Assembly: GCF_029626105.1 (NCBI RefSeq)
Contig: NZ_JARUBH010000009.1
Coordinates: 1,302,001 to 1,366,000 of the forward strand
Length of the DNA stretch: 64,000 nt
Reading direction: 5' to 3'
DNA from: Solwaraspora sp. WMMD792
Lineage (GTDB): Bacteria > Actinomycetota > Actinomycetes > Mycobacteriales > Micromonosporaceae
Positions 41,617-57,839 of this stretch are shown in pieces (positions within the stretch are counted from its first letter, which is position 1; each line of letters starts with the position of its first letter). The position numbers and the translations under genes were made by a program. The notes below the pieces were generated by a model. It worked only from the letters and a program-made list of their open reading frames with translations. It did no database searches and had not been told where the DNA came from.

Positions 41617-42240
41617 TCACGGTCCCGAGTCGGGTTTCGGCCGCACGATGAACCAGATCGCGTGCACGTCCTGGTCGCTGCGGTTCTCCAGCAGGTGCGG
41701 GCGGGACGAGTCGAACACCATGCTGTCCCCGGCGCCGAGCACGACCTCCTGGAAGCCGACCTGACAGGTCAGCTCACCCTCCATGATGTAGGCGTGCTCG
41801 TGGCCGGTGTGCCGCTGGAACCGGCCGGACACACTGGACTTCGCACCGGGCGGGTAGGTGACCCGCAGGAACTCGGTGCCGGACCCGGTCGCCGGGCCGA
41901 GCTGCTCCCAGACGACACCGCTGTCCATCTCGATCCGTCGACCCTGGTCGCGGCGCACGATCGCCACCTCGGTGTCCAGCCGGGCCTCGATGGTGGCGGC
42001 GGCGGGGACCGGTGCGGAGCCGTTCGGCGACGGCGGGGTGTCGAACAGGTCGACCATCGACATGTCGAGGGCTTCGACGATCGCGTACAGCGTGCTCACC
42101 GAGGAGCGGGACCGGCCTGTCTCCACCAGTGAGAGCATGCTCGCTGAGACGCCGACCTTCTTGGCGAGCGCCCGCAGCGACATACCGCGTGCCTGGCGGG
42201 CGGCGCGGATCCGCCCACCCAGGTCTTCCGCCTCAGACAA
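41617..42240 (-). CDS. Xre-family regulator with C-terminal cupin
   Basis: The 207-residue protein has an Xre helix-turn-helix (GRIRAARQARGMSLRALAKK, VGVSASMLSLVETGRSRSSV) and a cupin sensor (FQRHTGHEHAYIMEGELTCQ, VVLGAGDSMVFDSSRPHLLE), the build of PuuR/SutR-like repressors. No ATG or GTG is well placed; TTG 42240 with GGGGTGG upstream is the best start and TTG 42246 an alternative. It is divergent from the amidohydrolase gene and is the natural regulator of the 42-56 kb island. Confidence 0.88.
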   Translation of the reverse strand: MSEAEDLGGRIRAARQARGMSLRALAKKVGVSASMLSLVETGRSRSSVSTLYAIVEALDMSMVDLFDTPPSPNGSAPVPAAATIEARLDTEVAIVRRDQGRRIEMDSGVVWEQLGPATGSGTEFLRVTYPPGAKSSVSGRFQRHTGHEHAYIMEGELTCQVGFQEVVLGAGDSMVFDSSRPHLLENRSDQDVHAIWFIVRPKPDSGP

Positions 42241-42466
42241 TGTCAAGCCACCCCAAACAGCCCAATCAGTCGATCTCTGTGAATCTACCCGATCACGCCC
42301 GGTGTCGGCTAGCTGATGCCGGGGTTTCGGTGAGTCCTGTTGAACGAAGTGTTGACTGAGGCTTGACACTGGCGTGGTGTGCGTCTCATCCTGGGCAGAC
42401 ACATTTCCTGGACGAGTCACCTGGGTTTCAACGACGTTCACGTAGTTCGACGAAGGGACGGCACCG

Positions 42467-43855
42467 ATGACAGGCAACGTCCTGCTCGCGGGAGGAATAG
42501 TTGTCACGTGCGCCGGGGCAGACGAGGTGCTCTGGCCGGCGGACGTACTGATCGACAACGGGGTGATCACGGCGATCGGTCGTGACCTGCCCGCCGGTCA
42601 CGCGCAGCGGGTCGACGTGTCCGGGCGCATCGTCATGCCCGGTCTGGTCGACACCCACCGGCACACCTGGCAGGCAGTGGTCCGCAACATCGCCTCGGAC
42701 TGGACCCTGGACCAGTACCTGGTCGGCCTGCACGTCGGGCTGAGCCGCTACTTCCGGCCGGAGGACACCTACGCCGGAACGCTGATCGGCGCCCTGGAAG
42801 CGCTCGACGCCGGCGTCACCACCCTGCTCGACTGGTCACACAACCTGTTCACCCCCGACCACACGGACGCCGCCGTGGACGCCCTCACCGACGCCGGACT
42901 CCGCGCGGTGTTCGCCCACGGCGGGGGCGCGCAGCAGTGGGGCGGGGAGATGCCCTCACCGGTGCCGCACCCCGAGGCCGACGTACGCCGGTTGCGCGCC
43001 GGCCGGTTCGCCGACAACACCGGCCTGGTCACCATGGGGCTGGCGCTGCGCGGACCGCAGTTCAGCACCCTGGAGGTCACCAAGGGCGACTTCCAGCTCG
43101 CCCGCGAACTGGACCTGCGGGTGTCGGTGCACGTCGGCGACGGACACTGGGGCAAGATCAAACCGATCCACCAGATGAACGGCGAGGGCCTGCTCAGCGA
43201 CCAGGTCACCTACGTGCACTGCAACACGCTCGCCGACGACGAGCTGCGGCTGATCGCCGACACCGGCGGCACCGCGTCGATCGCCCCCGACGTGGAAATG
43301 CAGATGGGGCACGGCTGGCCGGCCACCGGGCGGCTGCTCGACCTCGGCGTACGGCCGTCGCTGTCGGTCGACGTGTGCAGCTCCATCGGCGGCGACATGT
43401 TCACCACCATGCGTACCGCCCTCGCCGTGCAGCGGGCCACCGACAACAGCGCCGCGGTCGCGGCCGGCGAGGCCCCCGAGCGGGTCCGACTGTCCTGCGC
43501 CGACGTGCTGCGCTTCGCCACCATCGACGGCGCGCGGGCCAACGGACTCGACGCGGTCACCGGCTCGCTGGAGGTCGGCAAGGCGGCGGACATCGTCATC
43601 CTGGCCGGCGACTCACTCGCCACGATGCCGATGAACAACCCGGTCGCCTCCATCGTCTACGCCGCCCACCCCGGAATGGTCCGCGACGTGCTGGTGGCCG
43701 GCCGGTTCGTCAAGCGCGACGGCAAGCTCGTCGGGGTGGACCTCGACCGGCTGCGGGGCCTCGCCGAAGCCTCCCGCGACCACGTCATCTCCTCGCTCGA
43801 CGGCGCGGCGATCGGCGGCGGCTGGCAGCCCGACCCGAAGCTGCTGCTGGCATGA
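42467..43855 (+). CDS. Amidohydrolase, ATZ/TRZ (cytosine/guanine deaminase-like) family
   Basis: The 462-residue protein is a metal-dependent hydrolase of the amidohydrolase superfamily. Metal ligands are visible: HRH in GLVDTHRHTWQA, His in RVSVHVGDGHWG, His in VTYVHCNTL and Asp in SLSVDVCSSIGG. Small flanking beta segments are present at both ends (WPADVLIDNGVITAIG and GKAADIVILAGD). The group includes guanine, 8-oxoguanine and hydroxyatrazine-type deaminases; the true substrate is unknown, and the context suggests a nitrogen-containing small molecule. ATG 42467 has GAAGGGACGG upstream. ATGA overlap with the permease gene. Confidence 0.88.
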   Translation: MTGNVLLAGGIVVTCAGADEVLWPADVLIDNGVITAIGRDLPAGHAQRVDVSGRIVMPGLVDTHRHTWQAVVRNIASDWTLDQYLVGLHVGLSRYFRPEDTYAGTLIGALEALDAGVTTLLDWSHNLFTPDHTDAAVDALTDAGLRAVFAHGGGAQQWGGEMPSPVPHPEADVRRLRAGRFADNTGLVTMGLALRGPQFSTLEVTKGDFQLARELDLRVSVHVGDGHWGKIKPIHQMNGEGLLSDQVTYVHCNTLADDELRLIADTGGTASIAPDVEMQMGHGWPATGRLLDLGVRPSLSVDVCSSIGGDMFTTMRTALAVQRATDNSAAVAAGEAPERVRLSCADVLRFATIDGARANGLDAVTGSLEVGKAADIVILAGDSLATMPMNNPVASIVYAAHPGMVRDVLVAGRFVKRDGKLVGVDLDRLRGLAEASRDHVISSLDGAAIGGGWQPDPKLLLA

Positions 43856-44886
43856 GCACCCAGACCGTGGCGGGCGCACCGCCGACACCGACGACACCGG
43901 CCGTGCGGCTGGCCGACCCGCTGCGGGTGCAACTCGCCGGCTGGCCCGCGAGCCGCGCCCTGGCCGCGGTCGTGGTGCTCTTCGCCGCCAGCGCGATCAT
44001 CTCGCCGGCCAGTGTCGGCAGCACGGCGCTGCTGGCCATGCTGCCGTTCGCCGCGCTGACCATGGTGGTCTCGCTCGGCCAGACCCTGGTCGTGCAGCAG
44101 GCCGGCCTCGACCTGTCGGTGGCCGGTGGCATCGCCCTCGGCGCGCTCGTCGTCGCCCGCTACGGCGGCGCGGACGCTCTCGGGCTCGCCCCGGCGATCG
44201 GGCTGGCGCTGCTCGTCGCGGCGGTCGCCGGACTGGCCAGCGGGCTCGTGGTGACGTACCTGGGGCTGCCCGCCCTGGTCGTCACCCTCGCGATGAACGC
44301 GGTGCTGCTCGGCTTCGTGCAGTACCTGTCCGGCGGCTACAGCGCCCAGGTCACCGAGTCGTTCGCCGGCTTCGCGGTCGGCCGTACCCTCGGCCTGCCC
44401 AACCTGCTCTACCTGGCGGTGGCGCTGGTCGCCGTCGCCCAACTCGTCCTCAAGACCACCGTGATCGGCCGCCGGTTCGAGCTGGTCGGCGCGAACCGGC
44501 GGGCCGCACACGCGGCCGGCATCAACACCCGGCGCTACACGGTCGCCGCCTATCTGCTGTCCGGGCTGCTCGCCGGGGCCACCGGGGTGCTGCTCGCAGG
44601 CTTCCTGCGCACCACCACGCTCAGCGCGGGGGACAGCTACCTGCTGCCGTCGGTGGCTGCCGTCGTGCTCGGCGGCACCGCACTCACCGGCGGCCGGGGG
44701 AGTCTCGTCGGCACCGCCCTGGGTGCGCTGTTCCTCGGTCAGCTCAACCAGCTGGTGCAGACGTACAGCCAGACCGCCGCGATCCAGAACATCGTCCAGG
44801 CCGTGATCATCGGCGTGGGCGTGGTGGTCCAACTCAGCCTCGCGGCGCGGCTGCGCCAACGGGCGATCAGACGTACCAGCGGATAG
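43852..44886 (+). CDS. ABC transporter permease, ribose/nucleoside (RbsC) type
   Basis: The 344-residue protein has eight to ten membrane helices and the BPD_transp_2 signature (QTLVVQQAGLDLSVAGGIAL; RFELVGANRRAAHAAGINTR). It belongs to the RbsC/XylH/YtfT permeases of sugar and nucleoside importers. It starts in an ATGA overlap with the amidohydrolase gene, and would pair with the fused ATPase-permease at 46259 so that the importer is a heterodimeric channel. Confidence 0.92.
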   Translation: MSTQTVAGAPPTPTTPAVRLADPLRVQLAGWPASRALAAVVVLFAASAIISPASVGSTALLAMLPFAALTMVVSLGQTLVVQQAGLDLSVAGGIALGALVVARYGGADALGLAPAIGLALLVAAVAGLASGLVVTYLGLPALVVTLAMNAVLLGFVQYLSGGYSAQVTESFAGFAVGRTLGLPNLLYLAVALVAVAQLVLKTTVIGRRFELVGANRRAAHAAGINTRRYTVAAYLLSGLLAGATGVLLAGFLRTTTLSAGDSYLLPSVAAVVLGGTALTGGRGSLVGTALGALFLGQLNQLVQTYSQTAAIQNIVQAVIIGVGVVVQLSLAARLRQRAIRRTSG

Positions 44887-44888
44887 CC

Positions 44889-44992
44889 CGACCGGACCAA
44901 CGGACAGCACGCCCGGACCCGAGAGCGCGACCGGACCAACGGACAAGACCAGCCCTTGACGGACCGACCCCCGTCGGCGGAAGACCTCCGCC
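44889..44992 (+). promoter_or_regulatory. Direct repeats and hairpin between permease and binding-protein genes
   Basis: CGACCGGACCAACGGACA occurs at 44889-44906 and again at 44928-44945. A hairpin follows: GGCGGA (44976-44981) with TCCGCC (44987-44992). The segment from 45010 to 45060 is unusually AT-rich for this genome. Together these suggest partial termination or processing and a separate promoter for the binding protein. Confidence 0.45.
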
Positions 44993-45074
44993 GGCCGGCC
45001 CACTGTGGCCATATCAAGATGAATTTTCACTCTATTTCATGATCCTGATCCATCATCAAGTCAGGAGAATCTCG

Positions 45075-46253
45075 ATGACCCGAACAACCAACCTGCGCCG
45101 CCACCGGCGGTCCGCAGCCGTCACCTTGTTCGCCACCGCCTGCCTCACCGTCACCGCCTGCTCGTCGACCGCCGCCCCGAACGAGGAGACCGGCACCGAC
45201 GGCGGCACCGTCGCCATCGGCAACACCGGCCCGCTGTCCGACCTGATCGACATGAGCGAGGTCTGCGGCGACGAGCCGGTCACCGTCGGCCTGGTCGACG
45301 GCTTCGGCACCAACTCGTGGTCGCGGATCCTGCGCGCCGAGATCGAGGACGAGGCAGGCAAGTGCCCGGCGATCGAGGGCGTCGAGTACGCCGCCGGCCG
45401 CGGCGACCTGCAGGCCACCCTCTCGGCCATCACCGGCATGACCGCCAAGGGCGTCGACATCCTGCTCGTCGTGCCGTCCGCCGGACCGGGCGCGTCGCAC
45501 CTGCCGGCGATCCAGGCCGCCCACGCCGCCGGCGTGGTCGTCGTCCCGATCGCCGCCGACCCCACCGGTACGCCCGGCACCGACTACTTCGACTACGTCG
45601 ACTGGGACACCCGGCACGACGGCGTGCTGTGGGCACAGTGGATGGTTGACCGGCTCGGAGCGGAGGGCGGCAACGTCGTCCTGCTCGGCGGCCCGGCCGG
45701 CAACGCGGTCAGTCAGCAGGAACTCGAAGGCATCAACGAGGTCTTCGCCACCGCCCCGCAGATCAACGTGCTGACCCCGGAGCCGGTCACCACCAACTGG
45801 GACCCGGCCATGACCCAGCAGGCGATGGCCGGTCTGCTCGCCAAGTACCCGCAGATCGACGGCGTGATCAGCGACTACGGCACCGCCACCATGGGCGCCA
45901 TCCGGGCGTTCCAGAGCGCCGGCCGGCCGCTGGTGCCGATCGCCACCACCGACGACAACGAACTGAGCTGCCTGTTCGACGACGCCAAGGCCGACAACCC
46001 GGACTTCGAGCTGGCCACCGTGTCGGCCCGTACCTGGATCGGCCGGGTCGGGCTGCGCAAGGCACTCGCGCAGATCAACGGCCTGGACAACCCGGAGCCG
46101 TCGCTGATCCAGCTCAGCCTCTACGAGGACTCCACCGGAGCCGCCGACGGCGCGGTCACCCCCGCCGACGCCTGCCAGCCGGCGCTGCCGCCGGGTGCCT
46201 CGCCCTCGTCGCAGCTGTCCGCCGACGACCTCGCCGCGCTGTTCGAGGGCTGA
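45075..46253 (+). CDS. ABC transporter substrate-binding lipoprotein (ribose-binding type)
   Basis: The 392-residue lipoprotein has a signal with lipobox VTAC (lipidated Cys near residue 29) and a Peripla_BP_4-type fold: VTVGLVDGFGTNSWSRILRA, GVDILLVVPSAGPGASHLPA, GGNVVLLGGPAGNAVSQQEL, IDGVISDYGTATMGAIRAFQ. It captures the substrate for the two permease-bearing genes around it. ATG 45075 follows AGGAGA. Ligand unknown; the family binds pentoses, hexoses, nucleosides and autoinducer-2. Confidence 0.92.
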   Translation: MTRTTNLRRHRRSAAVTLFATACLTVTACSSTAAPNEETGTDGGTVAIGNTGPLSDLIDMSEVCGDEPVTVGLVDGFGTNSWSRILRAEIEDEAGKCPAIEGVEYAAGRGDLQATLSAITGMTAKGVDILLVVPSAGPGASHLPAIQAAHAAGVVVVPIAADPTGTPGTDYFDYVDWDTRHDGVLWAQWMVDRLGAEGGNVVLLGGPAGNAVSQQELEGINEVFATAPQINVLTPEPVTTNWDPAMTQQAMAGLLAKYPQIDGVISDYGTATMGAIRAFQSAGRPLVPIATTDDNELSCLFDDAKADNPDFELATVSARTWIGRVGLRKALAQINGLDNPEPSLIQLSLYEDSTGAADGAVTPADACQPALPPGASPSSQLSADDLAALFEG

Positions 46254-46258
46254 CCGCG

Positions 46259-48808
46259 ATGACGACGTCGGTCCGCCACGACACCGTGTTGACCCTGCGC
46301 GGGATCGTCAAGACCTATCCGGGCGTACGCGCCCTCGACGGGGTCGACCTGACCGTGCGGGCCGGCGAGGTGCACGCCGTCCTCGGTGAGAACGGGGCCG
46401 GAAAGTCCACCCTGGTCGGGGTCGCCGCCGGCGCGGTGGCCCCCGACTCGGGCACCATCACCCTGCTCGGGCGCGAGCACCGGCGGCTGACCCCGGCGCT
46501 GGCCCGCGACGACGGCCTGGCGCTGGTCTACCAGACGCCGGTGCTCGTCGGCAGCCTCACCGTCGCCGAGTCGATGCTGATGCTGCTGCCCGAGCGGGTC
46601 CGGCCCGGCGTCGACCAGGTGGCCACCTGGACCCGCCGCCACCTCGACGAACTCGGCCTGCCCATCGACGCCGACACCCTGGTCGCCGACCTCACCCCAC
46701 GCCAGGCGCACCTGGTCGAGATCGCCGCCGCGCTCGGCAGCGAACCGCAGGTGCTCGTCCTCGACGAGCCCACCGAGGCGCTCGGGCCGGACGAGACCGA
46801 GTGGCTGTTCGAGCAGGTCCGCCGGCTGGTCGCGGCCGGCGGGGCGGTCGTCTACATCACCCACCGGATCCCGGAGATCCGCCAGATCGCGCAGCGGCTG
46901 ACCGTGCTGCGTGACGGCCGGGTGGTCGACAGCGGCGACGTCGGGGCGCAGACCGACGAGGAGATCGTCGAGCTGATCGTCGGGCGCTCGCTGGAGACCA
47001 CCTTCCCGCCAAAGGCCGATCTGCCCGCTGGGCGGGCCGCCGCCGACCTGCCTGCAGCCGGGCAGGCGGACCCCGACCCGCCGCTGCTGACCTTCGACGG
47101 TCTCACCGGCACCGGGTTCCGGGGCGTCGACGGCGGGGTACGCCGCGGCGAGATCCTCGGCCTCGCCGGGGTCGAGGGCAACGGGCAGCGGCAGTTCCTG
47201 CGGGCGCTCGCCGGCCTGGTGCCGGCGAGCGGCCGGGTGGCGGTCGACAGCCGGCCGGTACGGCTGACCGGGCCGGCCGCCGCCGCCCGCCACGGCATCG
47301 TCTTCCTCTCCGGCGAACGGCTCGCCGAAGCGATGTTCGGCCAGCTCAGCGTCCGGGAGAACGTGGCCGCGACGCACCTGCCGGCGGTGTCGATCGGCAA
47401 GGTGCTGCCCCGGCGGGGCGCGGAGCGGCAGACGGTGGCCGCCGCGGTGACGTCGCTGCGGGTCAAGACGGCCACCCTGGACAGTCCAGTCGGCGCGCTG
47501 TCCGGCGGCAACCAGCAGAAGGCGCTGCTGGCCCGGGCAGCGCTCGGCGAGCCCGCCGTACTGCTGGTCGAGGACCCCACCCAGGGTGTCGACGCCGGCG
47601 CCCGGGTGGAGATCTACCGGGTGCTGCGCGAGATGGCCGCGCGCGGCACCGCCGTGGTGGTGCTGTCCACCGACGCGGTCGAGCTGGAAGGGCTCTGCGA
47701 CCGGGTGCTGGTCTTCTCCCGGGGCCGGGTGCAGGCCGAACTGGCCGCCGACACGCTCTCCGAGCGGCACGTCACCGGCGCCGCCGTGCTCGCCACCGAA
47801 GCGGCGGTCGAGCATGGCGCCAACCGGGCCCGTCCGCCCCGGCGGCGGCTGTTCGGCGGCGAGACGCAGACCCTGGCGGTGCTGGCGATGACCGTCGTGG
47901 GCGCAGCGGTCACCGCCGCGTCGTCGCCGGCCTTCCTGAGCCTGATCAGCCTGCAGCAGCTGCTGGTCGCCGCCGCGTCGCTGGCCCTGGTCGGCCTCGC
48001 CCAACTGGTCGTCGTCCTGACCGGCGGGATCGACCTGTCGGTCGGCTCGACGGTGGCGGTCGCGGTGGTCGTCGTGTCGTTCTTCGCCGACGGCGCACCC
48101 GCCGCCTTCGCTGTCGGGATCGTCGCGGCTGTCGGCGCCGGCGTCCTGGTCGGCCTGATAAACGGGACCCTGGTGACCGCCGTCGGGCTGCCCCCGGTGG
48201 TGGCCACACTGATCACCGGGATCGGCGTACTCGGGGTGGCGCAGCTGCTGCGGCCGCTGCCCGGCGGGGCGGCCAGCGGCGCGCTGCGGACCCTGCTCGG
48301 CACCACGATCGCCGGCGTACCGCTGACCTTCCTGGTGGCGGTCGTCGCCGGCGTCGCCGGGCACCTGCTGCTGCGCCGCTCGCGCCTCGGCCGGGCGCTG
48401 CGGGCCACCGGCTCCGACCCGGTGCGGGCCGCGCGGATGGGCGTCGACACCACCCGGACCAAACTCACCGGGTACGCCCTCGCCGGCGCGCTGGCCGCGC
48501 TCGGCGGGGTGGTGCTGTACGCGCAGACCGGAGTCGGCAACGCCGCCGTCGGCCAGGCGCTCACCCTCGCCTCCGTGGCGGCGGTGGTGCTCGGCGGGGC
48601 GAGCATCTTCGGCGGCTCCGGTTCGGCGCTGGCCACCGTCGCCGCCGCCCTGTTCCTGCAGACCGTCACCAGCGCGATCAGTTTCCTGTCGTTCAGCCTC
48701 GCCTGGCAGTTCTGGATCCAGGGCGTCCTGGTGGTGGCCGCCGCCTCGTTCCCGCTGCTGCGCAGCCGGCGACGCAGGCGGGCCGTCGTCGCACTCGCCG
48801 CCGACTGA
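46259..48808 (+). CDS. Fused ABC ATPase-permease (RbsA-RbsC fusion)
   Basis: The 849-residue protein combines a double ATPase of the RbsA type with a permease. First nucleotide-binding domain: Walker A GENGAGKST at 43-51, Walker B VLVLDEPTEALG. Second: the degenerate Walker A GVEGNGQRQ usual for RbsA, signature LSGGNQQKALLARAAL, Walker B LLVEDPTQGVD. From about residue 530 a BPD_transp_2 permease follows (VVVLTGGIDLSVGSTVAVAV; TRTKLTGYALAGALAALGGV). The fusion makes a full half-transporter in one chain. It starts 5 bases after the binding-protein gene. Confidence 0.92.
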   Translation: MTTSVRHDTVLTLRGIVKTYPGVRALDGVDLTVRAGEVHAVLGENGAGKSTLVGVAAGAVAPDSGTITLLGREHRRLTPALARDDGLALVYQTPVLVGSLTVAESMLMLLPERVRPGVDQVATWTRRHLDELGLPIDADTLVADLTPRQAHLVEIAAALGSEPQVLVLDEPTEALGPDETEWLFEQVRRLVAAGGAVVYITHRIPEIRQIAQRLTVLRDGRVVDSGDVGAQTDEEIVELIVGRSLETTFPPKADLPAGRAAADLPAAGQADPDPPLLTFDGLTGTGFRGVDGGVRRGEILGLAGVEGNGQRQFLRALAGLVPASGRVAVDSRPVRLTGPAAAARHGIVFLSGERLAEAMFGQLSVRENVAATHLPAVSIGKVLPRRGAERQTVAAAVTSLRVKTATLDSPVGALSGGNQQKALLARAALGEPAVLLVEDPTQGVDAGARVEIYRVLREMAARGTAVVVLSTDAVELEGLCDRVLVFSRGRVQAELAADTLSERHVTGAAVLATEAAVEHGANRARPPRRRLFGGETQTLAVLAMTVVGAAVTAASSPAFLSLISLQQLLVAAASLALVGLAQLVVVLTGGIDLSVGSTVAVAVVVVSFFADGAPAAFAVGIVAAVGAGVLVGLINGTLVTAVGLPPVVATLITGIGVLGVAQLLRPLPGGAASGALRTLLGTTIAGVPLTFLVAVVAGVAGHLLLRRSRLGRALRATGSDPVRAARMGVDTTRTKLTGYALAGALAALGGVVLYAQTGVGNAAVGQALTLASVAAVVLGGASIFGGSGSALATVAAALFLQTVTSAISFLSFSLAWQFWIQGVLVVAAASFPLLRSRRRRRAVVALAAD

Positions 48809-48866
48809 GGCCGGCAGGCCCGACCGGGGCCAGCAGACCTGCGTACGGAAGAAGGGGGATCAGCAC

Positions 48867-49865
48867 ATGTACGGGGATCAGCGCGTCTACCACGTGACCC
48901 GAATGGACGACGAGCGGGCGGTCACGCCGCCCGGGTACGCCGAGCACAGCACCGGCTTCCGACGCCAGGACCTGATCGGCCGGGAAACCGGCTCGCACCA
49001 CATGACGATGAGCACCGGCATCCTCGACCCGGGCGGTGCCATCGCGGTCACCGTTCACTCGTACGAGAAGAGCCTGTGGATCTGGTCCGGTGAACTGACC
49101 CTGACCATGCTCGGCCAGCGGCTGACCCTGCGGGCCGACGACTGCGCGTTGGTGCCGGTGGCGGTGGCGCACCAGCTCACCGCCGGGCGCGCCGGTGCCC
49201 GGTGGTTGGAGATGTCCGCGCCGGTGCGGCTGCTGCCCGGCGACCACCGCCGGGACACCTTCTTCGTCCCCGGTGAGCTCACCGGCGGCGAGTTCGGCGG
49301 CGAGGCCGGCGGGGTCGACCTGCGCGACCCCCGCAACCGGCACTCCTTCCGCTTCGACAGCTCCTCGATGGACCTGCGCCGGCTGGCCCGGGGCAGTGAC
49401 CCGAACGCCCCGGAGGTGTCCGCCAGCATGGCCACCGCGCTGCTCGCGTACAGCGGCATCGGCATCCGGATGCTCGCCGACCAGCGGGTCGGTGCGCAGC
49501 TGCACACCATGTTCATGGTCGAGTACCAGCCGACCGCGGTCGCCCACCCGCACGACCACCCGTTCGAGGAGGCGTACGTGTTCACCGAGGGACGCACCGA
49601 GGCGGTGGTGGCCGGCGGCGTCGAAGTCAGCCTCGAACCCGGCGACGTGCTGTGGACCGGCTCCGGCTGCGACCACGCCTTCTACAACCGCACCGACGGG
49701 CGGACCCGGTGGATCGAGACCCAGTCGCCGCAGCCGCCCGCCCAGCACTCGTACCGGTTCAACCGCGACTGGGAGTACCTCGACCGGCAACTCTGCGCCG
49801 GAGTCCGGGTCGATCCGCGGTCGACCGGGGCCGCGCCGGACGACACCGGGACGGCTCCGCGATGA
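48867..49865 (+). CDS. Bicupin protein, (S)-ureidoglycine aminohydrolase-like
   Basis: The 332-residue protein has two cupin domains. The C-terminal one carries a full metal-site pattern, VAHPHDHPFEEAYVFTEGRT followed by WTGSGCDHAFYN; the N-terminal one has VHSYEKSLWIWSGELTLTML. The layout is like ureidoglycine aminohydrolase (UGHY/AllE), a manganese enzyme of ureide breakdown, but the substrate-binding residues cannot be assigned here. With the amidohydrolase, it points to a ureido- or amino-compound as island substrate. It overlaps the next gene by ATGA. Confidence 0.8.
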   Translation: MYGDQRVYHVTRMDDERAVTPPGYAEHSTGFRRQDLIGRETGSHHMTMSTGILDPGGAIAVTVHSYEKSLWIWSGELTLTMLGQRLTLRADDCALVPVAVAHQLTAGRAGARWLEMSAPVRLLPGDHRRDTFFVPGELTGGEFGGEAGGVDLRDPRNRHSFRFDSSSMDLRRLARGSDPNAPEVSASMATALLAYSGIGIRMLADQRVGAQLHTMFMVEYQPTAVAHPHDHPFEEAYVFTEGRTEAVVAGGVEVSLEPGDVLWTGSGCDHAFYNRTDGRTRWIETQSPQPPAQHSYRFNRDWEYLDRQLCAGVRVDPRSTGAAPDDTGTAPR

Positions 49866-50767
49866 GGATCGGCCAACTGGGCACCGGGCGGATGGGCACC
49901 GCGATCGCGCGGCGGCTGATCGACGCCGGCCACCAGGTCACCGTCTGGAACCGCACCGCGGCCAAGGCCGCGCCGCTGGTCGAGCAGGGAGCGGTACCCG
50001 CGGCGACGCTCGCCGACCTGGCCGGCTGCCCGGTGGTGTTCGTCTCGGTCTCCTCCTCCGACGACCTGCTCGCCGTGCTCGACCCCGGCGACGGGTTGCT
50101 GTCCGCAGCCGACGGGGGGTTGCGGACCGTGGTGGACTGCTCCACCGTCGCGGTCGAGGCGTCCGCCGCCGCCCGCGAACTCTGCGCACAGGCCGGCGTG
50201 GCGTTCCTCGCCGCGCCGATCAGCGGCAACCCGGAGGTGGTCGGCTCCGGGCGGGCCTGCCTGGTCGCCTCCGGGCCGGCGGGCACCTTCGCCGACGTCG
50301 AGCCGCTGCTGCGGGCCGTCGGCCGGATCGCGGTGCACGCCGGGGAGCAGGAACAGGCCCGGCTGGTGAAGCTGGCCCACAACCTCTACCTGGGCGCGCT
50401 CGCGCAGGCACTGGTGGAGGTGACCACGCTGGTCGAGAAGGCCGGCACCGACCGTCGGGCGTTCCTCGACTTCCTCGGCAACGCCGTCGTCGGCTCCGAG
50501 TGGGTGCGCCAGCGTACCCCCGATCTGGCCGACCGGGACTGGACGCCCACCTTCACCGGCGTCCTGTTGCGCAAGGACCTCGACCTGGGCCTGGCCGCCG
50601 CCCGCGACCACGAGGTGCCGATGCCGGTGGTGTCCATGGTGCACCAGCTGGTGCAGCAGGCCGTCGGCAACGGCTACGGCGAGCAGGACCTGCTCGCCCT
50701 CTACGAGATCCAGGCCGCCGCCGCCGGCCTGACCGACCACCAGATGCAGGAAAGGAGTGCCCGATGA
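49862..50767 (+). CDS. NAD(P)-dependent 3-hydroxyisobutyrate dehydrogenase-like oxidoreductase
   Basis: The 301-residue protein is a beta-hydroxyacid dehydrogenase: Rossmann motif IGQLGTGRMGTAIARRLIDA, substrate region VDCSTVAVEA, AAPISGNPEVVGSGRACLVA and the catalytic Lys in RLVKLAHNLYLG. Relatives oxidise 3-hydroxyisobutyrate or interconvert tartronate semialdehyde and glycerate. Note that the usual DAPVSGG motif reads AAPISGN. It is coupled on both sides by ATGA overlaps (49862 and 50764). Confidence 0.87.
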   Translation: MRIGQLGTGRMGTAIARRLIDAGHQVTVWNRTAAKAAPLVEQGAVPAATLADLAGCPVVFVSVSSSDDLLAVLDPGDGLLSAADGGLRTVVDCSTVAVEASAAARELCAQAGVAFLAAPISGNPEVVGSGRACLVASGPAGTFADVEPLLRAVGRIAVHAGEQEQARLVKLAHNLYLGALAQALVEVTTLVEKAGTDRRAFLDFLGNAVVGSEWVRQRTPDLADRDWTPTFTGVLLRKDLDLGLAAARDHEVPMPVVSMVHQLVQQAVGNGYGEQDLLALYEIQAAAAGLTDHQMQERSAR

Positions 50768-52137
50768 GCACCGCCACCTTCGGGTTGAACGTCGTCGACT
50801 GGGAGGCCCGGGTCGACCCGGCCCGGCTGCGCCGTGAGCGGCTGGCGCGGCTGCGCCGCCAACTCGACGCGTCGTCGGTCGGGGCACTGCTGACCTTCGA
50901 CTTCCACAACATCCGCTACATGACCGCCACCCACATCGGCACCTGGGCGATGGACAAGCTGATCCGCTTCGCGCTGCTGCCGCGCGGGGGGGAACCCGTA
51001 CTGTGGGACTTCGGCTCCGCCGCCCGCCACCACGAGCTGTACGCGCCGTGGCTGGACTACCGGGGCGCGACCGACGGCGAGGGCCGGCCGATCGCCCCCG
51101 CCGCGCAGGGCACCAGTGGCTCCCGGGCCGGCATCTCGGTGCTGCGCGGCGCCTTCCACCCCGACGCCGGCGTCGCCGAGGCGGTCGCGGACAAGATCTA
51201 CGCCGAACTCGACCGGTACGGGCTGACCGACGCCCCGCTCGGCGTCGACATGCTCGAACTGCCGATCCTGACCGCGTTGCAGGCCAGAGGCATCGAGGTC
51301 GTCGACGGCCAGCAGATCTTCCTGGAAGCCCGGCGGATCAAGACCCCCGACGAGATCGCGCTGCTCACCACGGCCGCGTCGATGGTCGACGCCGCCTACG
51401 ACGACCTGTACGCGTTCCTACGCCCCGGCGTACGGGAGAACGAAACCGTCGGGCTGGTCGCCAAGAAACTGTTCGACCTCGGCTCCGAACACGTCGAAGG
51501 GGTCAACGCGATCTCCGGGGAACGCTGCTCGCCGCACCCGCACGTGTTCAGTGACCGGCTGATCCGCCCCGGCGACCCGGCGTTCTTCGACATCCTGCAC
51601 AGCTTCATGGGCTACCGCACCTGCTACTACCGCACCTTTGCGGTGGGCAGTGCCTCCCGGGCCCAGGTCGACGCCTACCAGCGGTGCCGCGACTACATGG
51701 ACCAGGCGATCGAGCTGGTCAAGCCGGGCGCGACCACCGCCGACATCGTCTCGGTCTGGCCGACCGCGCAGGAGTTCGGCTTCGCCGACGAGGAGGCCGC
51801 GTTCGGCCTGCAGTACGGCCACGGCGTCGGACTGTCCATCTGGGAGAAGCCGATCTTCAGCCGACTCGTCTCACTGGAGCACCCCGAGGTGATCGAGGAG
51901 GGCATGGTCTTCGCGCTGGAGACCTACTGGCCGGCCGCCGACGGCTGGGGTGCCGCCCGGATCGAGGAGGAACTGGTCGTCACCGCCGACGGTGCCGAGG
52001 TGATCACCAAGTTCCCGGCCGAGCAGCTGCTCGTGGCCGGTCAGCGCTACTTCACCACCGGCGGGGCGCTGCCGCTGCAGCGGCACAGCCAGTCGCACAT
52101 CAACAACCGGCCCGGTGCGGACGGAGTGGACCGATGA
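50764..52137 (+). CDS. M24-family (creatinase/prolidase-fold) hydrolase, altered metal site
   Basis: The 457-residue protein has a creatinase N-terminal domain and a pita-bread C-terminal domain. Compared with the M24 metal set, the first Asp (PAFFDI), the His (QYGHGVGLS), and two Glu (VFALETYW, RIEEELVV) are present, but the second Asp, normally in SDITRTF, is Cys in RTCYYRTF. Creatinase and ectoine hydrolase are M24 members that hydrolyse non-peptide C-N bonds with changed metal sites, so a similar non-peptidase role is likely. ATGA overlaps at both ends tie it to the dehydrogenase and E1 alpha genes. Confidence 0.85.
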   Translation: MSTATFGLNVVDWEARVDPARLRRERLARLRRQLDASSVGALLTFDFHNIRYMTATHIGTWAMDKLIRFALLPRGGEPVLWDFGSAARHHELYAPWLDYRGATDGEGRPIAPAAQGTSGSRAGISVLRGAFHPDAGVAEAVADKIYAELDRYGLTDAPLGVDMLELPILTALQARGIEVVDGQQIFLEARRIKTPDEIALLTTAASMVDAAYDDLYAFLRPGVRENETVGLVAKKLFDLGSEHVEGVNAISGERCSPHPHVFSDRLIRPGDPAFFDILHSFMGYRTCYYRTFAVGSASRAQVDAYQRCRDYMDQAIELVKPGATTADIVSVWPTAQEFGFADEEAAFGLQYGHGVGLSIWEKPIFSRLVSLEHPEVIEEGMVFALETYWPAADGWGAARIEEELVVTADGAEVITKFPAEQLLVAGQRYFTTGGALPLQRHSQSHINNRPGADGVDR

Positions 52138-53198
52138 CCCTGCCGCTGCAACACCACCTGTACGGCGAGCACGACGCCGTCCTGCCGCCGGGTGACGTGA
52201 CCCGGCACGACAGCGCGCCGATCGACCTGGACACCCGGCTGCACCTGTACCGGCGTCAGCAGGAGATGCGCCAGTTCGAGAAGCGGGCGTACGACCTGTT
52301 CATGCAGCAGCTGGTGAAGGGCACCAGCCACCTGTCGCTGGGGATGGAGGCGATCGCCGCCGGCTTCGGTGTGGCGATGCGCGCCGACGACTACAGCTTC
52401 GCCACCTACCGGGGTCACGCGCACACCCTGGCCCGGGGCGTCGGGATGACCCCGGTGCTGGCCGAACTGCTCGGCCGGGCCAACGGCCTGCTCGGCGGCA
52501 AGGGCGGCTCGATGCACCTGACCAGCGTCGAGCACGGCATGCTGGGCTCGTACGCGATCATCGGCGCGCATCTGACGATCGCCAACGGCGCGGCCTGGTC
52601 CGCCCAGTACCGGGGCTCCGGGCAGGTCGCGGTCTGCTTCTTCGGCGACGGCACCACCAACATCGGGGCGTTCCACGAGGCGCTCAACTACGCCGCCGTG
52701 TACCGGCTGCCGGTGGTGTTCGTCTGCGAGAACAACCTGTACATGGAGTACACGGTCACCAGCGACATCACCGCGGTGCGCCGGCCGGCAGCCGACCGGG
52801 CGGCGGCGTACGGGATGACACCGATCGAGATCGACGGCAACGACGCCGACGAGGTCTACCAGACGGCCGTGGCCGCCCTGGCCCGGGCCCGGTCCGGCGC
52901 GGGACCGTCGCTGGTGGAGGCGGTCACCTACCGCCACGGCGGGCACTCCCGTGCCGACCCGGGCAAGTACCGGCCGGCGGCCGAGGTGGACGCCTGGAAG
53001 GCGTACGACCCGGTGGCGATCTACCGGGGCCGGCTGCGGCGTCTCGGCGTCGACCCGGCGCAGCTGGACCGGATCGACAAGGAGGTGGCCGACGCGGTCG
53101 ACGAGGCGACCGAGCAGGCCAGCGCCGGTGAGCTGCCCCCACCGGGCAGCGCGATGACCGAGCTGTGGGCGGATGGAGGATCGTCATGGCGCAACTGA
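52134..53198 (+). CDS. 2-oxoacid dehydrogenase E1 component, alpha subunit
   Basis: The 354-residue protein is the thiamin-diphosphate-binding alpha chain of a pyruvate/acetoin/branched-chain type dehydrogenase. The ThDP motif runs from GDG at 171-173 (FFGDGTTNIGAFHEALNYAA) to Asn200-Asn201 (VVFVCENN); the phosphorylation-loop region YRHGGHSRADPGKY is present. The substrate could be pyruvate, acetoin or another 2-oxoacid; acetoin-type AcoA is a close look-alike. It overlaps the beta gene by 13 bases. Confidence 0.92.
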   Translation: MTLPLQHHLYGEHDAVLPPGDVTRHDSAPIDLDTRLHLYRRQQEMRQFEKRAYDLFMQQLVKGTSHLSLGMEAIAAGFGVAMRADDYSFATYRGHAHTLARGVGMTPVLAELLGRANGLLGGKGGSMHLTSVEHGMLGSYAIIGAHLTIANGAAWSAQYRGSGQVAVCFFGDGTTNIGAFHEALNYAAVYRLPVVFVCENNLYMEYTVTSDITAVRRPAADRAAAYGMTPIEIDGNDADEVYQTAVAALARARSGAGPSLVEAVTYRHGGHSRADPGKYRPAAEVDAWKAYDPVAIYRGRLRRLGVDPAQLDRIDKEVADAVDEATEQASAGELPPPGSAMTELWADGGSSWRN

Positions 53199-54163
53199 GC
53201 TACCGCGAGGCGGTCGCCCGGGGCATCGCCCAGGAGATGGACCGCGACGAGCGGGTGGTGCTGGTCGGCGAGGACGTTGCCGGTGCCGGCGGGGTGTTCA
53301 AGACGACCGCCGGGCTGCTCGACCGGTTCGGGCCGCGCCGGGTCGTCGACACCCCGATCTCCGAGCAGGCCATCCTCGGCGCGGCGATGGGTGCGGCGAT
53401 GACCGGGCTGCGCCCGGTCGCCGAGATCATGTTCTCCGACTTCTTCGCGGTCTGCTGGGACATCGTGGTCAACCAGATCGCCAAGACCCGGTACATGACC
53501 AACGGCCAGGTCAGCCTGCCGCTGGTGATCAAGTCCGGCAACGGCGGAAGTCTGCGGTTCGGTGCCCAGCACTCGCAGTCGGTGGAGAACTGGGCGATGG
53601 CCGTACCCGGTCTGAAGGTGGTCAGCCCGTCCACCCCGACCGACGTGGTCGGCCTGATGGCCGCCGCCGTCCGCAGCGACGACCCGGTGCTGTTCTTCGA
53701 ACACAAGGGACTGTACGCGGGGCGGGCCGAGGTGCCCGACGGGGAGATCGTCGACACCCTCGGCACCGCGAAGATCCGCCGGCCGGGCCGGGACGCCACC
53801 GTCGTCGCGCTCGGTCTGATGGTGCCCCGGGCGCTGCAGGCCGCCGACGAACTCGCCGGGCGGGGCATCGACGTCGAGGTCATCGACGTCCGGTCGCTGG
53901 TGCCGCTGGACGTGACCACCATCCTGGACTCGGTGCACCGCACCGGGCGGCTGTTCACCGTCGAGGAGAACCCGCGGCTGCTCGGCTGGGGCGCGGAGAT
54001 CGCCTCGATCGCCGTCGACGAGGCGTTCTGGGACCTGGACGGGCCGGTCCAGCGGATCACCACCCCGCACATTCCACTGCCGTCCGCCGATTCGCTGGAG
54101 GACCTGGTCATCCCGTCGGTGGAGAGCATCGGGCAGACCATCGAGAAGGCGCTGCAGTCGTGA
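53186..54163 (+). CDS. 2-oxoacid dehydrogenase E1 component, beta subunit
   Basis: The 325-residue protein is the partner beta chain: REAVARGIAQEMDRDERVVL, GEDVAGAGGVFKTTAGL with the ThDP-activating Glu, TPISEQAILGAAMGAAMTGL, GAQHSQSVENWAMAVPGLKV and the C-terminal domain VIDVRSLVPLDVTTILDSV. ATG 53186 is preceded by GGAGGA and lies inside the end of the alpha gene. GTGA overlap with the E2-like gene follows, so the three proteins should be made in equal amounts. Confidence 0.93.
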   Translation: MAQLSYREAVARGIAQEMDRDERVVLVGEDVAGAGGVFKTTAGLLDRFGPRRVVDTPISEQAILGAAMGAAMTGLRPVAEIMFSDFFAVCWDIVVNQIAKTRYMTNGQVSLPLVIKSGNGGSLRFGAQHSQSVENWAMAVPGLKVVSPSTPTDVVGLMAAAVRSDDPVLFFEHKGLYAGRAEVPDGEIVDTLGTAKIRRPGRDATVVALGLMVPRALQAADELAGRGIDVEVIDVRSLVPLDVTTILDSVHRTGRLFTVEENPRLLGWGAEIASIAVDEAFWDLDGPVQRITTPHIPLPSADSLEDLVIPSVESIGQTIEKALQS

Positions 54164-54945
54164 CCCGCCAGCAGCACAGCCCCCGGGTGCGGCGGCTCGC
54201 CGGCGAACACGGTGTCGACCTGGCCGGCCTGCGCGGGAGCGGCCCGGCCGGTCGGGTACGCCCCGCCGACGTGCTCGCCGCCGCGCAGCCGGCCACCCGG
54301 TCGGCATCGACAGCCGCGACCGCCGCCGTGCCGAGTGCCGCCGCCGTCGTCGTGCCGGCGGCCGGCTCCGGCCGTACGGTGGCAGCCGCGGTGGTCGAAG
54401 CCCAGCTCGGCGTCGCCGACGATCGTCCGGTCGGGCCGCTCGCCGCCGTCGCGCTGCTGCGGGCGCTGCGCCGCACCCCGCTGGCCGACGCCGACGGACG
54501 GCACCTGGCGGTGCTTGTCGACGGCGCGGACGGCAGACGCGGCGTACGGGTGCTGCGCGACGCCGGGGACCTCAACCCGGCGGCCGTCGCCCGCCATCTC
54601 GCCGACCCGGACGGTCTCGCCGAGGAAGCGTCCGCCGCCGGCGACGGACCGGCACCGGCTGTCGCGCTGTGCGACAGCGCCGCCGCCGGCCTGCTGCACG
54701 AGGTCCCGCAGCTGCCGGCCGGGCTGGCGGCGGTAGTCAGCGTCGGAGTACCCGTCGAGCGACCCACCGTGGTGCGCCACGACGGTCAACCGATGCTGGC
54801 CATCGGCGCGGTCAGCACCGTCGGCATCGTCCACGACCCGGCGCGGATCGCACCCGCCGCCGCCCACGCGCTGCTCGGTGCCGTACGCGCCGAACTGGAA
54901 ACCCTCCGCTCGACGACGAACCCGACGACGAACAGGAACCGTTGA
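54160..54945 (+). CDS. Degenerate E2-like protein: subunit-binding domain, no lipoyl domain
   Basis: The 261-residue protein begins directly with a peripheral subunit-binding domain (SPRVRRLAGEHGVDLAGLRG, SGPAGRVRPADVLAA), then an Ala-rich linker and an acyltransferase-like fold (LAAVALLRALRRTPLADADG, RRGVRVLRDAGDLNPAAVAR, VERPTVVRHDGQPMLAIGAV). The N-terminal lipoyl domain of a normal E2 is absent, and the catalytic HxxxDG near the end is replaced by HDPARIAPAAAHALL. GTG 54160 overlaps the E1 beta stop; the codons upstream are the E1 gene, so no lipoyl domain was missed. It may tether E1 to another partner rather than transfer acyl groups. Confidence 0.8.
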   Translation: MTRQQHSPRVRRLAGEHGVDLAGLRGSGPAGRVRPADVLAAAQPATRSASTAATAAVPSAAAVVVPAAGSGRTVAAAVVEAQLGVADDRPVGPLAAVALLRALRRTPLADADGRHLAVLVDGADGRRGVRVLRDAGDLNPAAVARHLADPDGLAEEASAAGDGPAPAVALCDSAAAGLLHEVPQLPAGLAAVVSVGVPVERPTVVRHDGQPMLAIGAVSTVGIVHDPARIAPAAAHALLGAVRAELETLRSTTNPTTNRNR

Positions 54946-54947
54946 CC

Positions 54948-56321
54948 ATGCCCATCGCCACCGTGAACCCGGCCACCGGCGAGACCGTACGGACGTACCC
55001 GTCGATGAGCGACGACGAGATCGAGCAGGCCCTCGCGGCTGCGGCCGCCGCCCGGCCGCCGATGCGGTCCGCCAGCTTCGCCCAGCGGGCGTCCTGGCTG
55101 CGGGCCGCCGCCGACCTGCTCGACGCCGACGCCGACGAGCTGGCCGCCACCATGACCCTGGAGATGGGCAAGCCGATCGGCGCGGCGCTGGCCGAGGTAC
55201 GCAAGTCGGCGGCCGGTTGCCGGTTCTACGCCGAGCAGGCCGAACGGATGCTCGCCGACGAGCCGGTCGACCCGGCGGCGGTCGGCGCGCGCAGCGCGTA
55301 CGTGCGCTACGAACCGCTCGGCGTGGTGTTGGCCGTGATGCCGTGGAACTTCCCGCTGTGGCAGGCGCTCCGGTTCGCGGCACCGGCGTTGATGGCCGGC
55401 AACGTCGGCCTGCTCAAGCACGCCTCCAACGTGCCGCAGACCGCGGTCTACCTGGTGGAGCTGTTCACCCGGGCCGGGTTCCCGGCCGGGGCGTTCCAGA
55501 GCCTGCTGATCGGCGCGTCGACGGTGGACCGGGTGATCCGCGACGACCGGGTGGCGGCGGTGACCCTCACCGGTAGTGAGGCGGCCGGGCGGGCGGTGGC
55601 CGCCGCCGCCGGGCAGGCGCTGAAGAAGACGGTGCTGGAGCTGGGCGGCTCGGACCCGTTCGTCGTGCTGCCGTCGGCGGACGTGACTCAGGCGGCGGCG
55701 GTCGCCGCGCGGGCCCGCTGCCAGAACAACGGGCAGTCGTGCATCGCGGCGAAACGGTTCATCGTGCACCGGGCGGTGCTCGACGAGTTCACCGGCGAGT
55801 TCGTGGCCCGGATGGCGGCGCTGGTGGTCGGTGACCCGGCCGACCCGGCGACCGAGGTCGGGCCGCTGGCCACCGCGCAGACCCGGCAGGACGTGGCCGA
55901 CCTGGTCGACGACGCGGTGGCCCGGGGAGCGACCGTGCTGACCGGCGCGAAACTGCCGGACGGGCCGGGCTGGTTCTACCCGCCGACGGTGCTCACCGGC
56001 GTCGACCCGACCATGCGGCTGTACGCCGAGGAGGCGTTCGGCCCGGTCGCGGTGATCTACCCGGTCGACTCCCTCGACGAGGCGATCGCGGTGGCCAACG
56101 GCACCGCGTTCGGGCTCGGCTCGGTCGTCTGGACCGGCGACCCGGCCGAGCAGCGCCGCTGCGTCGACGAACTGGCGGCCGGCAGCGTCACGGTCAACGG
56201 AATGACGGTGTCCTACCCGGAGCTGCCGTTCGGCGGCATCAAGACCAGCGGGTACGGCCGGGAGCTGTCGGTGCACGGCATCCGCGAGTTCTGCAACGTC
56301 AAGGCCGTCTGGCAGGGCTGA
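54948..56321 (+). CDS. NAD(P)-dependent aldehyde dehydrogenase (succinate-semialdehyde type)
   Basis: The 457-residue protein has the ALDH landmarks: oxyanion-hole Asn in MPWNFPLWQ, cofactor motif TLTGSEAAGRAV, Glu231 in LELGGSDPF and the catalytic Cys265 in NNGQSCIAAKR. The sequence is nearest to GabD-like semialdehyde dehydrogenases. It probably oxidises an aldehyde made earlier in the island. ATG 54948 starts two bases after the E2-like gene's stop; it is the last gene of the operon. Confidence 0.92.
   Translation: MPIATVNPATGETVRTYPSMSDDEIEQALAAAAAARPPMRSASFAQRASWLRAAADLLDADADELAATMTLEMGKPIGAALAEVRKSAAGCRFYAEQAERMLADEPVDPAAVGARSAYVRYEPLGVVLAVMPWNFPLWQALRFAAPALMAGNVGLLKHASNVPQTAVYLVELFTRAGFPAGAFQSLLIGASTVDRVIRDDRVAAVTLTGSEAAGRAVAAAAGQALKKTVLELGGSDPFVVLPSADVTQAAAVAARARCQNNGQSCIAAKRFIVHRAVLDEFTGEFVARMAALVVGDPADPATEVGPLATAQTRQDVADLVDDAVARGATVLTGAKLPDGPGWFYPPTVLTGVDPTMRLYAEEAFGPVAVIYPVDSLDEAIAVANGTAFGLGSVVWTGDPAEQRRCVDELAAGSVTVNGMTVSYPELPFGGIKTSGYGRELSVHGIREFCNVKAVWQG

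Positions 56322-57410: not shown

Positions 57411-57839
<429 letters not shown>

Follow-up and report, generated by a model that had tools for sequence, protein, structure and literature searches.

An eleven-gene operon of Solwaraspora sp. WMMD792 with an M24-E1-aldehyde dehydrogenase core probably encodes an apparently undescribed catabolic route

Results

We analysed a stretch of 64,000 nucleotides from Solwaraspora sp. WMMD792 (assembly GCF_029626105.1, contig NZ_JARUBH010000009.1, positions 1,302,001 to 1,366,000 of the forward strand), which we call the window. It contains a run of eleven plus-strand genes (42467-56321) behind a divergent gene for an Xre-cupin regulator, and a check of open reading frames (ORFs), starts and junctions found this arrangement as the initial annotation had claimed it. 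The operon encodes an importer of the ribose type, five candidate catabolic enzymes (an amidohydrolase, a bicupin, an enzyme resembling 3-hydroxyisobutyrate dehydrogenase (HIBADH), an M24 enzyme and an aldehyde dehydrogenase (ALDH)), a two-subunit thiamine diphosphate (ThDP)-dependent E1, an E2-like scaffold and the regulator. We believe that this is probably a real, conserved catabolic operon for an apparently undescribed breakdown route, and that its M24-E1-ALDH core is the most interesting part. Families were assigned through Pfam for 10 of the 12 proteins and through NCBIfam for E1 alpha and the ALDH.

Five of the ten junctions are 4-base overlaps, one is a 13-base overlap (E1 alpha/E1 beta) and the others are gaps of 188, 5, 58 and 2 bases, so the earlier description of the genes as mostly joined by four-base overlaps was slightly generous. 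The 188-base gap (44887-45074), between the first permease gene and the binding-protein gene, is the widest of the run, and an internal start would most likely lie there.

The M24 enzyme (50764-52137, plus strand) belongs to its superfamily by score (PF00557, 123.3 bits against a cut-off of 23) and has the pita-bread fold by Foldseek; its AlphaFold2 (AF2) model has a mean predicted local distance difference test (pLDDT) score of 82.0. The top four fold matches are all DddP structures (4s01, 4b28, 4rzy and 4s00; template modelling (TM) score about 0.74, 24-25% identity) and come before the prolidases; in a plain sequence search the prolidases are slightly ahead of DddP. DddP is also the best NCBIfam model for the M24 enzymes of the window and of two loci from other genomes, L090 and L155, far below its cut-off each time (NF043017, 108.2, 111.0 and 111.1 bits, respectively, against 600). 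The invariant ligands of DddP are given as D295, D297, D307, H371, E406 and E421 in PMC4108388. In an alignment to RdDddP, Asp295 corresponds to D276 of the window enzyme, and H353, E386 and E401 preserve the His and both Glu ligands. Asp307 is replaced by Cys287, which thus stands in place of the second metal aspartate, and Asp297 falls in a gap; the residue mutated in PDB entry 4s01, Asp377, corresponds to Ser358. Cys287 did not vary in any of the 57 relatives of 380-500 residues, from a family of 62, nor in any of the 33 members of an overlapping set. Because of these changed metal ligands, we rejected a role as dimethylsulfoniopropionate (DMSP) lyase. The models for the ectoine hydrolase DoeA likewise scored far below their cut-offs (TIGR02993, 54.2 against 613; NF038259, 59.1 against 575). 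Judged by its sequences, we read the protein as a member of a sister family of DddP that is neither a DMSP lyase nor an ordinary prolidase. Of 296 genomes spread over the phylum, 30, including that of the window, encode a relative at an E-value of 1e-60 or better, and in the annotated plasmid records among the M24 matches listed the protein is named only as a peptidase.

The next two genes encode E1 alpha (52134-53198, plus strand), with a ThDP-type motif GDG...NN, and E1 beta (53186-54163, plus strand; PF02779 and PF02780). E1 alpha scored below the cut-offs of the pyruvate dehydrogenase (PDH) models (TIGR03182, 308.1 against 393.85; TIGR03181, 223.7 against 411.35), and E1 beta fell short of the equivalog NF008854 (335.9 against 454). 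We placed E1 alpha in a FastTree phylogeny of 51 sequences (7 of 58 family members were dropped for length) together with the four clear paralogues of its own genome; a fifth, very weak own-genome match was omitted. The window sequence fell inside a clade of 33 with a support of 0.994, and none of the four paralogues did. All 33 members share their stretch with M24 and E1 beta, and M24 lies within two genes in 29 of them. Leaving out the window, the bicupin alone had led to 14 of these loci and M24 to 18. Companions in the clade were the HIBADH-like enzyme (26/33), the bicupin (25/33), the amidohydrolase (22/33), a short-chain dehydrogenase/reductase (SDR; 21/33) and the ALDH (11/33). An E2-like protein was found in 8 of the 33, with none in the stretch of the other 25. 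The E1 proteins of roseobacter, Thermoleophilia and Rokubacteria loci fall outside the clade; thus, the partnership of M24 and E1 is older than the clade or was formed repeatedly.

The E2-like protein (54160-54945, plus strand) has a single Pfam match, the E3-binding domain PF02817 at residues 7-39. It contains no lipoyl domain or motif and no HxxxDG, with HDPARIA at the expected motif position, and from its sequence it looks like an E3-binding domain followed by an eroded acyltransferase domain. No E3 gene was recognised among the operon genes by Pfam or NCBIfam. Among the clustered loci, only the window and two congeners had the E2-like protein as a whole. On a Streptomyces plasmid, an E2 of 264 residues (L110:17592-18386) parallels it, having no lipoyl domain and DPRAVDG at the HxxxDG site, where its His too is lost.

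The last gene encodes the ALDH (54948-56321, plus strand), which passed the model for NADP-dependent succinic semialdehyde dehydrogenase (SSADH; NF006915, 768.6 against 730) and keeps the ELGG and GQSC motifs with the catalytic Glu and Cys. By model and motifs it is a succinic-semialdehyde-type dehydrogenase. Five ALDHs tested from other module loci had an SSADH model, TIGR01780, as their best match each time, below its cut-off. Because these SSADH-type enzymes match different SSADH models, an omega-carboxy aldehyde is suggested.

Upstream, the amidohydrolase (42467-43855, plus strand) is of the PRK08204 subfamily and ATZ/TRZ-like. It passed NF006056 with 536.7 bits against 391, and its metal ligands H64, H66, H222, H251 and D302 were invariant in 54 of 54 aligned relatives of 400-560 residues (out of 62 in the family). 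Deaminases of the ATZ/TRZ type typically carry His-x-x-Glu after the fifth strand. At this position we found HVGD in the window and HVVG in L090, so the deaminase motif is missing from both.

The bicupin (48867-49865, plus strand; PF07883) has a C-terminal cupin in which H229, H231, E235 and H270 were invariant in 42 of 42 aligned sequences, a putative metal set of three His and one Glu. The manganese site of ureidoglycine aminohydrolase is Glu-His-His-Gln. In fold searches (AF2 model, mean pLDDT 87.1) many bicupins matched. Quercetinase ranked first (TM 0.60 by target and 0.60 by query), and by E-value both quercetinase and oxalate decarboxylase stood above ureidoglycine aminohydrolase (4e2q, rank 23), although the latter had the higher TM score over the target (0.72; 0.56 by query). 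The 'glyoxylate-induced protein' 1sq4 ranked fourth in a profile search. The sole NCBIfam match at an E-value up to 0.001 was NF049940 (mandelonitrile lyase), below cut-off; no ureidoglycine aminohydrolase model appeared among matches at that threshold, in a library that presumably holds one. The modelled fold therefore does not single out a family or reaction, and the label 'ureidoglycine-aminohydrolase-like' in the initial annotation is not supported. Members of a catechol-type intradiol dioxygenase family share the stretch with the bicupin in L072, L091 and L097; the L072 protein scored below the cut-offs of all models tested. We considered these ring-cleavage genes as a clue to the substrate and set them aside because three loci are too few.

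The HIBADH-like enzyme (49862-50767, plus strand; PF03446 and PF14833) is a beta-hydroxyacid dehydrogenase of the HIBADH/tartronate-semialdehyde-reductase type. Its best NCBIfam model, TIGR01505, gave 130.1 bits against 340.75 and TIGR01692 gave 125.1 against 291.6, both under cut-off; K170 was invariant in 39 of 39 aligned sequences. An SDR common to most relatives of the locus is missing from the window operon. The usual SDR motif is YxxxK, and this family has YxxxT in 70 of 70 aligned sequences (L043:9228-9968 and 69 relatives), so the SDR beside the bicupin may be something other than an ordinary dehydrogenase.

The importer consists of a permease (43852-44886, plus strand; PF02653), a binding protein (45075-46253, plus strand; PF13407; an alternative start is possible at 45039) and a double ATPase fused to a second permease (46259-48808, plus strand; PF00005 twice, PF02653 at 566-828). 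With this double ATPase, BPD_transp_2 permeases and a Peripla_BP_4 binding protein, Pfam and NCBIfam uphold the ribose-type ATP-binding cassette (ABC) importer proposed at first, of the carbohydrate uptake transporter 2 (CUT2) class. Every sugar-specific NCBIfam model listed scored under its cut-off. The best PDB matches of the binding protein were 4rsm, 4rs3 and 5hko, the last two named as CUT2 sugar-binding proteins; we did not take a substrate name from them because these CUT2-type sugar binders are matched at low similarity. The regulator (41617-42570, minus strand) combines an Xre-type helix-turn-helix with a cupin (HTH_3, HTH_31 and Cupin_2). Its 5' end is uncertain, as the longest ORF, from 42570, overlaps the start of the amidohydrolase gene and a codon-usage call gives 42183. 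It scored 59.1 bits against the PuuR cut-off of 211.

Conservation was followed from two anchors. A search of genome contigs with an alignment of eight bicupin sequences found a relative in 330 stretches; we kept the best 80, predicted their genes from codon usage and grouped these by BLAST. As only the best were kept, the counts lean to close relatives, and loci of the Acidimicrobia type, which share one gene order and are not independent, make up many of the 80. M24 and the amidohydrolase were each present in 51 loci and occurred together in 41; the SDR was present in 64, the regulator family in 59, the HIBADH-like enzyme in 26, E1 in 22 and E2 in 18. Their titles include Dactylosporangium, Micromonospora, Virgisporangium, Acidimicrobiaceae, Solirubrobacterales, Thermoleophilia, Rhizobiaceae, Bradyrhizobiaceae and Betaproteobacteria, among others. 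In L090, from a proteobacterial metagenome-assembled genome (MAG), the bicupin, SDR, amidohydrolase, HIBADH-like enzyme, M24, E1 alpha, E1 beta, ALDH and a full E2 are encoded in a row. Amidohydrolase, bicupin, M24 and E1 occur together in 12 of the 80 loci (some with a distant E1), in 8 of 11 family loci and in 9 of 29 stretches found through M24. Among 61 genomes (its own and 60 relatives) a strong bicupin match (E 3.3e-38 or better) occurred in 12, and 16 matched at E 0.001; two of the six other congeners had a strong match. The operon is therefore accessory and patchy. Three MAG contigs titled Acidobacteria (L035, L059 and L060) have a gene order much like the Acidimicrobiaceae loci, through either transfer or mis-binning.

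The second anchor was M24, for which we examined 29 stretches from 26 of the other 29 matching genomes of the phylum sample (leaving aside two genomes and one 3.7-kb contig). E1 alpha and beta were present in 19, ALDH in 9, the bicupin in 11 and the amidohydrolase in 9. None of the 19 stretches with E1 had an E2, lipoyl or E3-binding protein. L155, L161 and L163 are small clusters that comprise M24, E1 alpha, E1 beta and ALDH together with a LacI-type regulator and an importer; L161 also has additional SDRs. A TauE/SafE-like permease family, labelled from its sequence, lies near M24 in L148, L150, L151 and L160.

M24 also matched 49 plasmid records, of which 11 were opened; E1 was present in the stretches of 7. 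In five records of the roseobacter group, SDR, M24, E1 alpha, E1 beta, a lipoyl protein, SSADH and E2 lie beside a ribose-type importer, and in one of these the flanking SDRs are annotated as 2,3-butanediol and sorbitol dehydrogenases. Streptomyces YIM 121038 carries the HIBADH-like enzyme, M24, SSADH, VOC, E1, E2 and a flavin reductase/LLM pair, and Rhodococcus opacus pR1CP1 carries M24 with neither E1 nor the HIBADH-like enzyme. Three Paenarthrobacter plasmids from two strains (L105, L106 and L114) have genes for M24, RidA, the HIBADH-like enzyme, a crotonase and flavin reductases, and no E1. These plasmids come from sulfonamide degraders, whose sad cluster, as described in PMC10873849, comprises two monooxygenases and a flavin reductase. 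As the make-up of that cluster differs and the M24 family is far wider, we take the link as a coincidence. On a Natrialba magadii plasmid (L113:5736-10242) the neighbours of a more distant M24 (about 35%) include a one-chain ThDP-binding protein, an LLM oxidoreductase and a major facilitator superfamily (MFS) transporter, which hints that M24 may pair with ThDP enzymes beyond the E1 type.

A promoter and terminator scan found no sigma-70-like promoter and terminator-like sites no more frequent than expected by chance, and three intergenic stretches and the downstream region had only short, imperfect inverted repeats. No riboswitch offered a clue to the substrate, as all Rfam families stayed below their gathering scores in the window operon, L090, L048 and L088. 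Outside the operon the only Rfam matches in the window were RNase P and a tRNA; the RNase P RNA (class A, 57414-57832, minus strand, 273.7 bits) is encoded on the opposite strand, about 1.1 kb beyond the downstream end of the operon.

Discussion

The eleven genes very probably serve one dedicated pathway. Their grouping is more than chance, because several operon families recur together far outside the genus, and this co-occurrence in distant bacteria backs what the initial annotation had deduced from overlaps and shared strand. Among the proteins singled out there for neighbourhood comparison, the bicupin and M24 do travel together, and among the clustered loci the E2-like protein in its whole form was not seen beyond the genus. 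Comparison of the loci suggests that M24, E1 alpha and E1 beta form a core downstream module, with ALDH next to it in part of the loci, and that the upstream genes vary by lineage.

Based on these comparisons, we propose a model that leads from import to the ALDH. The gene set is read from the sequence, whereas we infer the order of steps and their chemistry. The regulator may sense the substrate or an intermediate through its cupin, and the importer may take up a polar ring or amide compound. The amidohydrolase and the bicupin would hydrolyse or isomerise the imported compound, and the HIBADH-like enzyme would oxidise or reduce a beta-hydroxy acid. M24, acting as a hydrolase or lyase, would then yield a 2-oxo acid (or ketol), from which E1 alpha/beta would remove CO2 (or which it would cleave). 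Last, the succinic-semialdehyde-type ALDH would convert the resulting aldehyde to a dicarboxylate for the tricarboxylic acid (TCA) cycle. A substrate-induced catabolic operon of this kind is a plausible explanation of the whole, to which we give not quite an even chance, and the order M24, E1, ALDH is proposed just as tentatively. The earlier suggestion of a nitrogen-containing substrate is unproven: the amidohydrolase keeps its metal ligands and lacks the deaminase Glu, and related M24-E1 modules stand beside polyol-type dehydrogenases. Mycosporine-type enaminones and other named compounds were also considered as possible substrates and set aside.

The fate of the E1 product deserves separate comment. 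In the window operon E1 would most likely release an aldehyde, because no lipoyl E2 is encoded, and the oxidative decarboxylation first suggested is doubtful here. For the same reason, and because 25 of the 33 clade loci have no E2-like protein in the stretch, we tentatively propose aldehyde release rather than acyl-CoA formation, at somewhat less than even odds. Other lineages, such as those of L090 and others with a full E2, may form acyl-CoA, so that both routes may exist, and a housekeeping E2 could serve the window E1.

Several observations weigh against the proposed route. ALDH was found in just 5 of the 80 bicupin loci and in 3 of the 22 with E1. E1 was missing from the stretch in 30 of the 51 bicupin loci with M24, mostly of the Acidimicrobia type, and in 10 of the 29 M24-anchored stretches; over all loci just 44 of 102 M24 genes have E1 within two genes. 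Sixteen of the 80 bicupin loci had no amidohydrolase, M24, E1 or HIBADH-like enzyme in the stretch. Fourteen of these have proteobacterial titles, and there the bicupin-SDR pair may serve something else. E2, lipoyl or E3-binding proteins occur in 18 of the 22 bicupin loci with E1, some with an intact HxxxDG, and therefore the acyl-CoA route is favoured in those loci. Only five of these 22 (L039, L048, L083, L090 and L101) fall inside the 33-member clade, the rest having a more distant E1 or one outside the tree sample. Within the clade, 18 of 33 loci have neither ALDH nor an E2-like protein in the stretch; contig ends truncate many stretches. Additionally, E1 beta of the window passed a PDH E1 beta subfamily model (NF006667, 347.1 against 321).

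A wider and more speculative proposal is that the module is widespread and comprises a new M24 family, with Cys in its metal site, whose new small-molecule reaction feeds E1. This E1, often without its own lipoyl E2, would be a decarboxylase or ketol-cleaving enzyme, and lineage-specific upstream genes (amidohydrolase, bicupin and YxxxT SDR; flavin monooxygenase-type; polyol-type dehydrogenases) would degrade different compounds by way of one shared intermediate. We consider this possible but less likely than not. Should the module be real, some common nutrient would have a breakdown route not recognised so far, and a family now annotated as peptidases would consist of catabolic enzymes.

The alternative that survives best is ketol (acyloin) cleavage, in which E1 would cleave a hydroxyketone, as acetoin dehydrogenase does. 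M24 and the dehydrogenases would supply this hydroxyketone, and the products would be a semialdehyde for the ALDH together with an acid or acyl-CoA. The butanediol- and sorbitol-type SDRs that flank M24-E1-E2-ALDH on the roseobacter-group plasmids point this way, as do the ALDH after E1 in the three small clusters and the E2 of some loci (L090, for example), which is complete and keeps HxxxDG. It is nevertheless unlikely for the window, whose E1 matches models of the PDH type (alpha below and beta above cut-off) and whose E2-like protein would be unable to carry lipoate.

The operon might also hold two functions, a transport and scavenging island and a dehydrogenase block unrelated to it, which came to adjoin by chance or through selfish-operon transfer. 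The gap after the first permease gene fits such a seam, and parts of the set do occur alone: L155, L161 and L163 have M24-E1-ALDH and neither amidohydrolase nor bicupin, Acidimicrobia-type loci have amidohydrolase-bicupin-M24 and no E1, and proteobacteria have bicupin-SDR and no M24. We consider it improbable in view of the loci in all three samples that hold amidohydrolase, bicupin, M24 and E1 together; because gene orders and strands differ between these loci, a single transferred block is disfavoured. A ureide- or purine-type (ureidoglycine/allantoin) pathway, with the bicupin as ureidoglycine aminohydrolase, the amidohydrolase as a ring deaminase or ureidase and the HIBADH-like enzyme acting on tartronate semialdehyde, is compatible with the bicupin fold (the TM score of 4e2q by target and the rank of 1sq4) and with tartronate semialdehyde reductase as the best, below-cut-off model of the HIBADH-like enzyme, but we judge it very improbable and rejected it because the bicupin lacks both the model match and the ligand set, none of the operon genes was recognised as an allantoinase, urease or ureidoglycolate gene, and M24, E1 and SSADH would be left without a role.

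In agreement with the initial annotation, we found no described operon with this gene set in the full-text literature searched by combined family names, from which subscription papers are largely missing. Our preferred model, the route from import to the ALDH, can be compared with several known systems. The bicupin has a two-cupin fold, like ureidoglycine aminohydrolase (AllE) and many other bicupins, and differs from AllE in model match and ligand set. Like the pyruvate and acetoin dehydrogenase complexes, the operon has E1 alpha/beta with a ThDP motif, an E1 beta above a PDH cut-off and an adjoining E3-binding protein; unlike them, it has an E1 alpha below the PDH cut-offs and no lipoyl domain, HxxxDG or recognised E3. 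DoeA and creatinase also belong to M24 and cleave C-N bonds in small molecules by hydrolysis. The window enzyme shares their fold, but it lies far below the DoeA cut-offs, and the usual partner genes of ectoine and creatine breakdown were not recognised in the operon. It resembles DddP more closely, in fold, in best NCBIfam model and in part of the N-terminal domain, which aligns, and is set apart from it by its low identity, its model score and the Cys and gap at metal Asp positions. Finally, some TCA cycles run through 2-oxoglutarate decarboxylase and SSADH, and PMC10418658 and PMC2773412 name succinic semialdehyde as product or intermediate. There, as in our model, a ThDP-dependent 2-oxo acid enzyme is followed by an SSADH-type enzyme, whereas the window has a two-subunit E1 of the PDH type and an operon with an importer and M24; the parallel is one of analogy, not homology.

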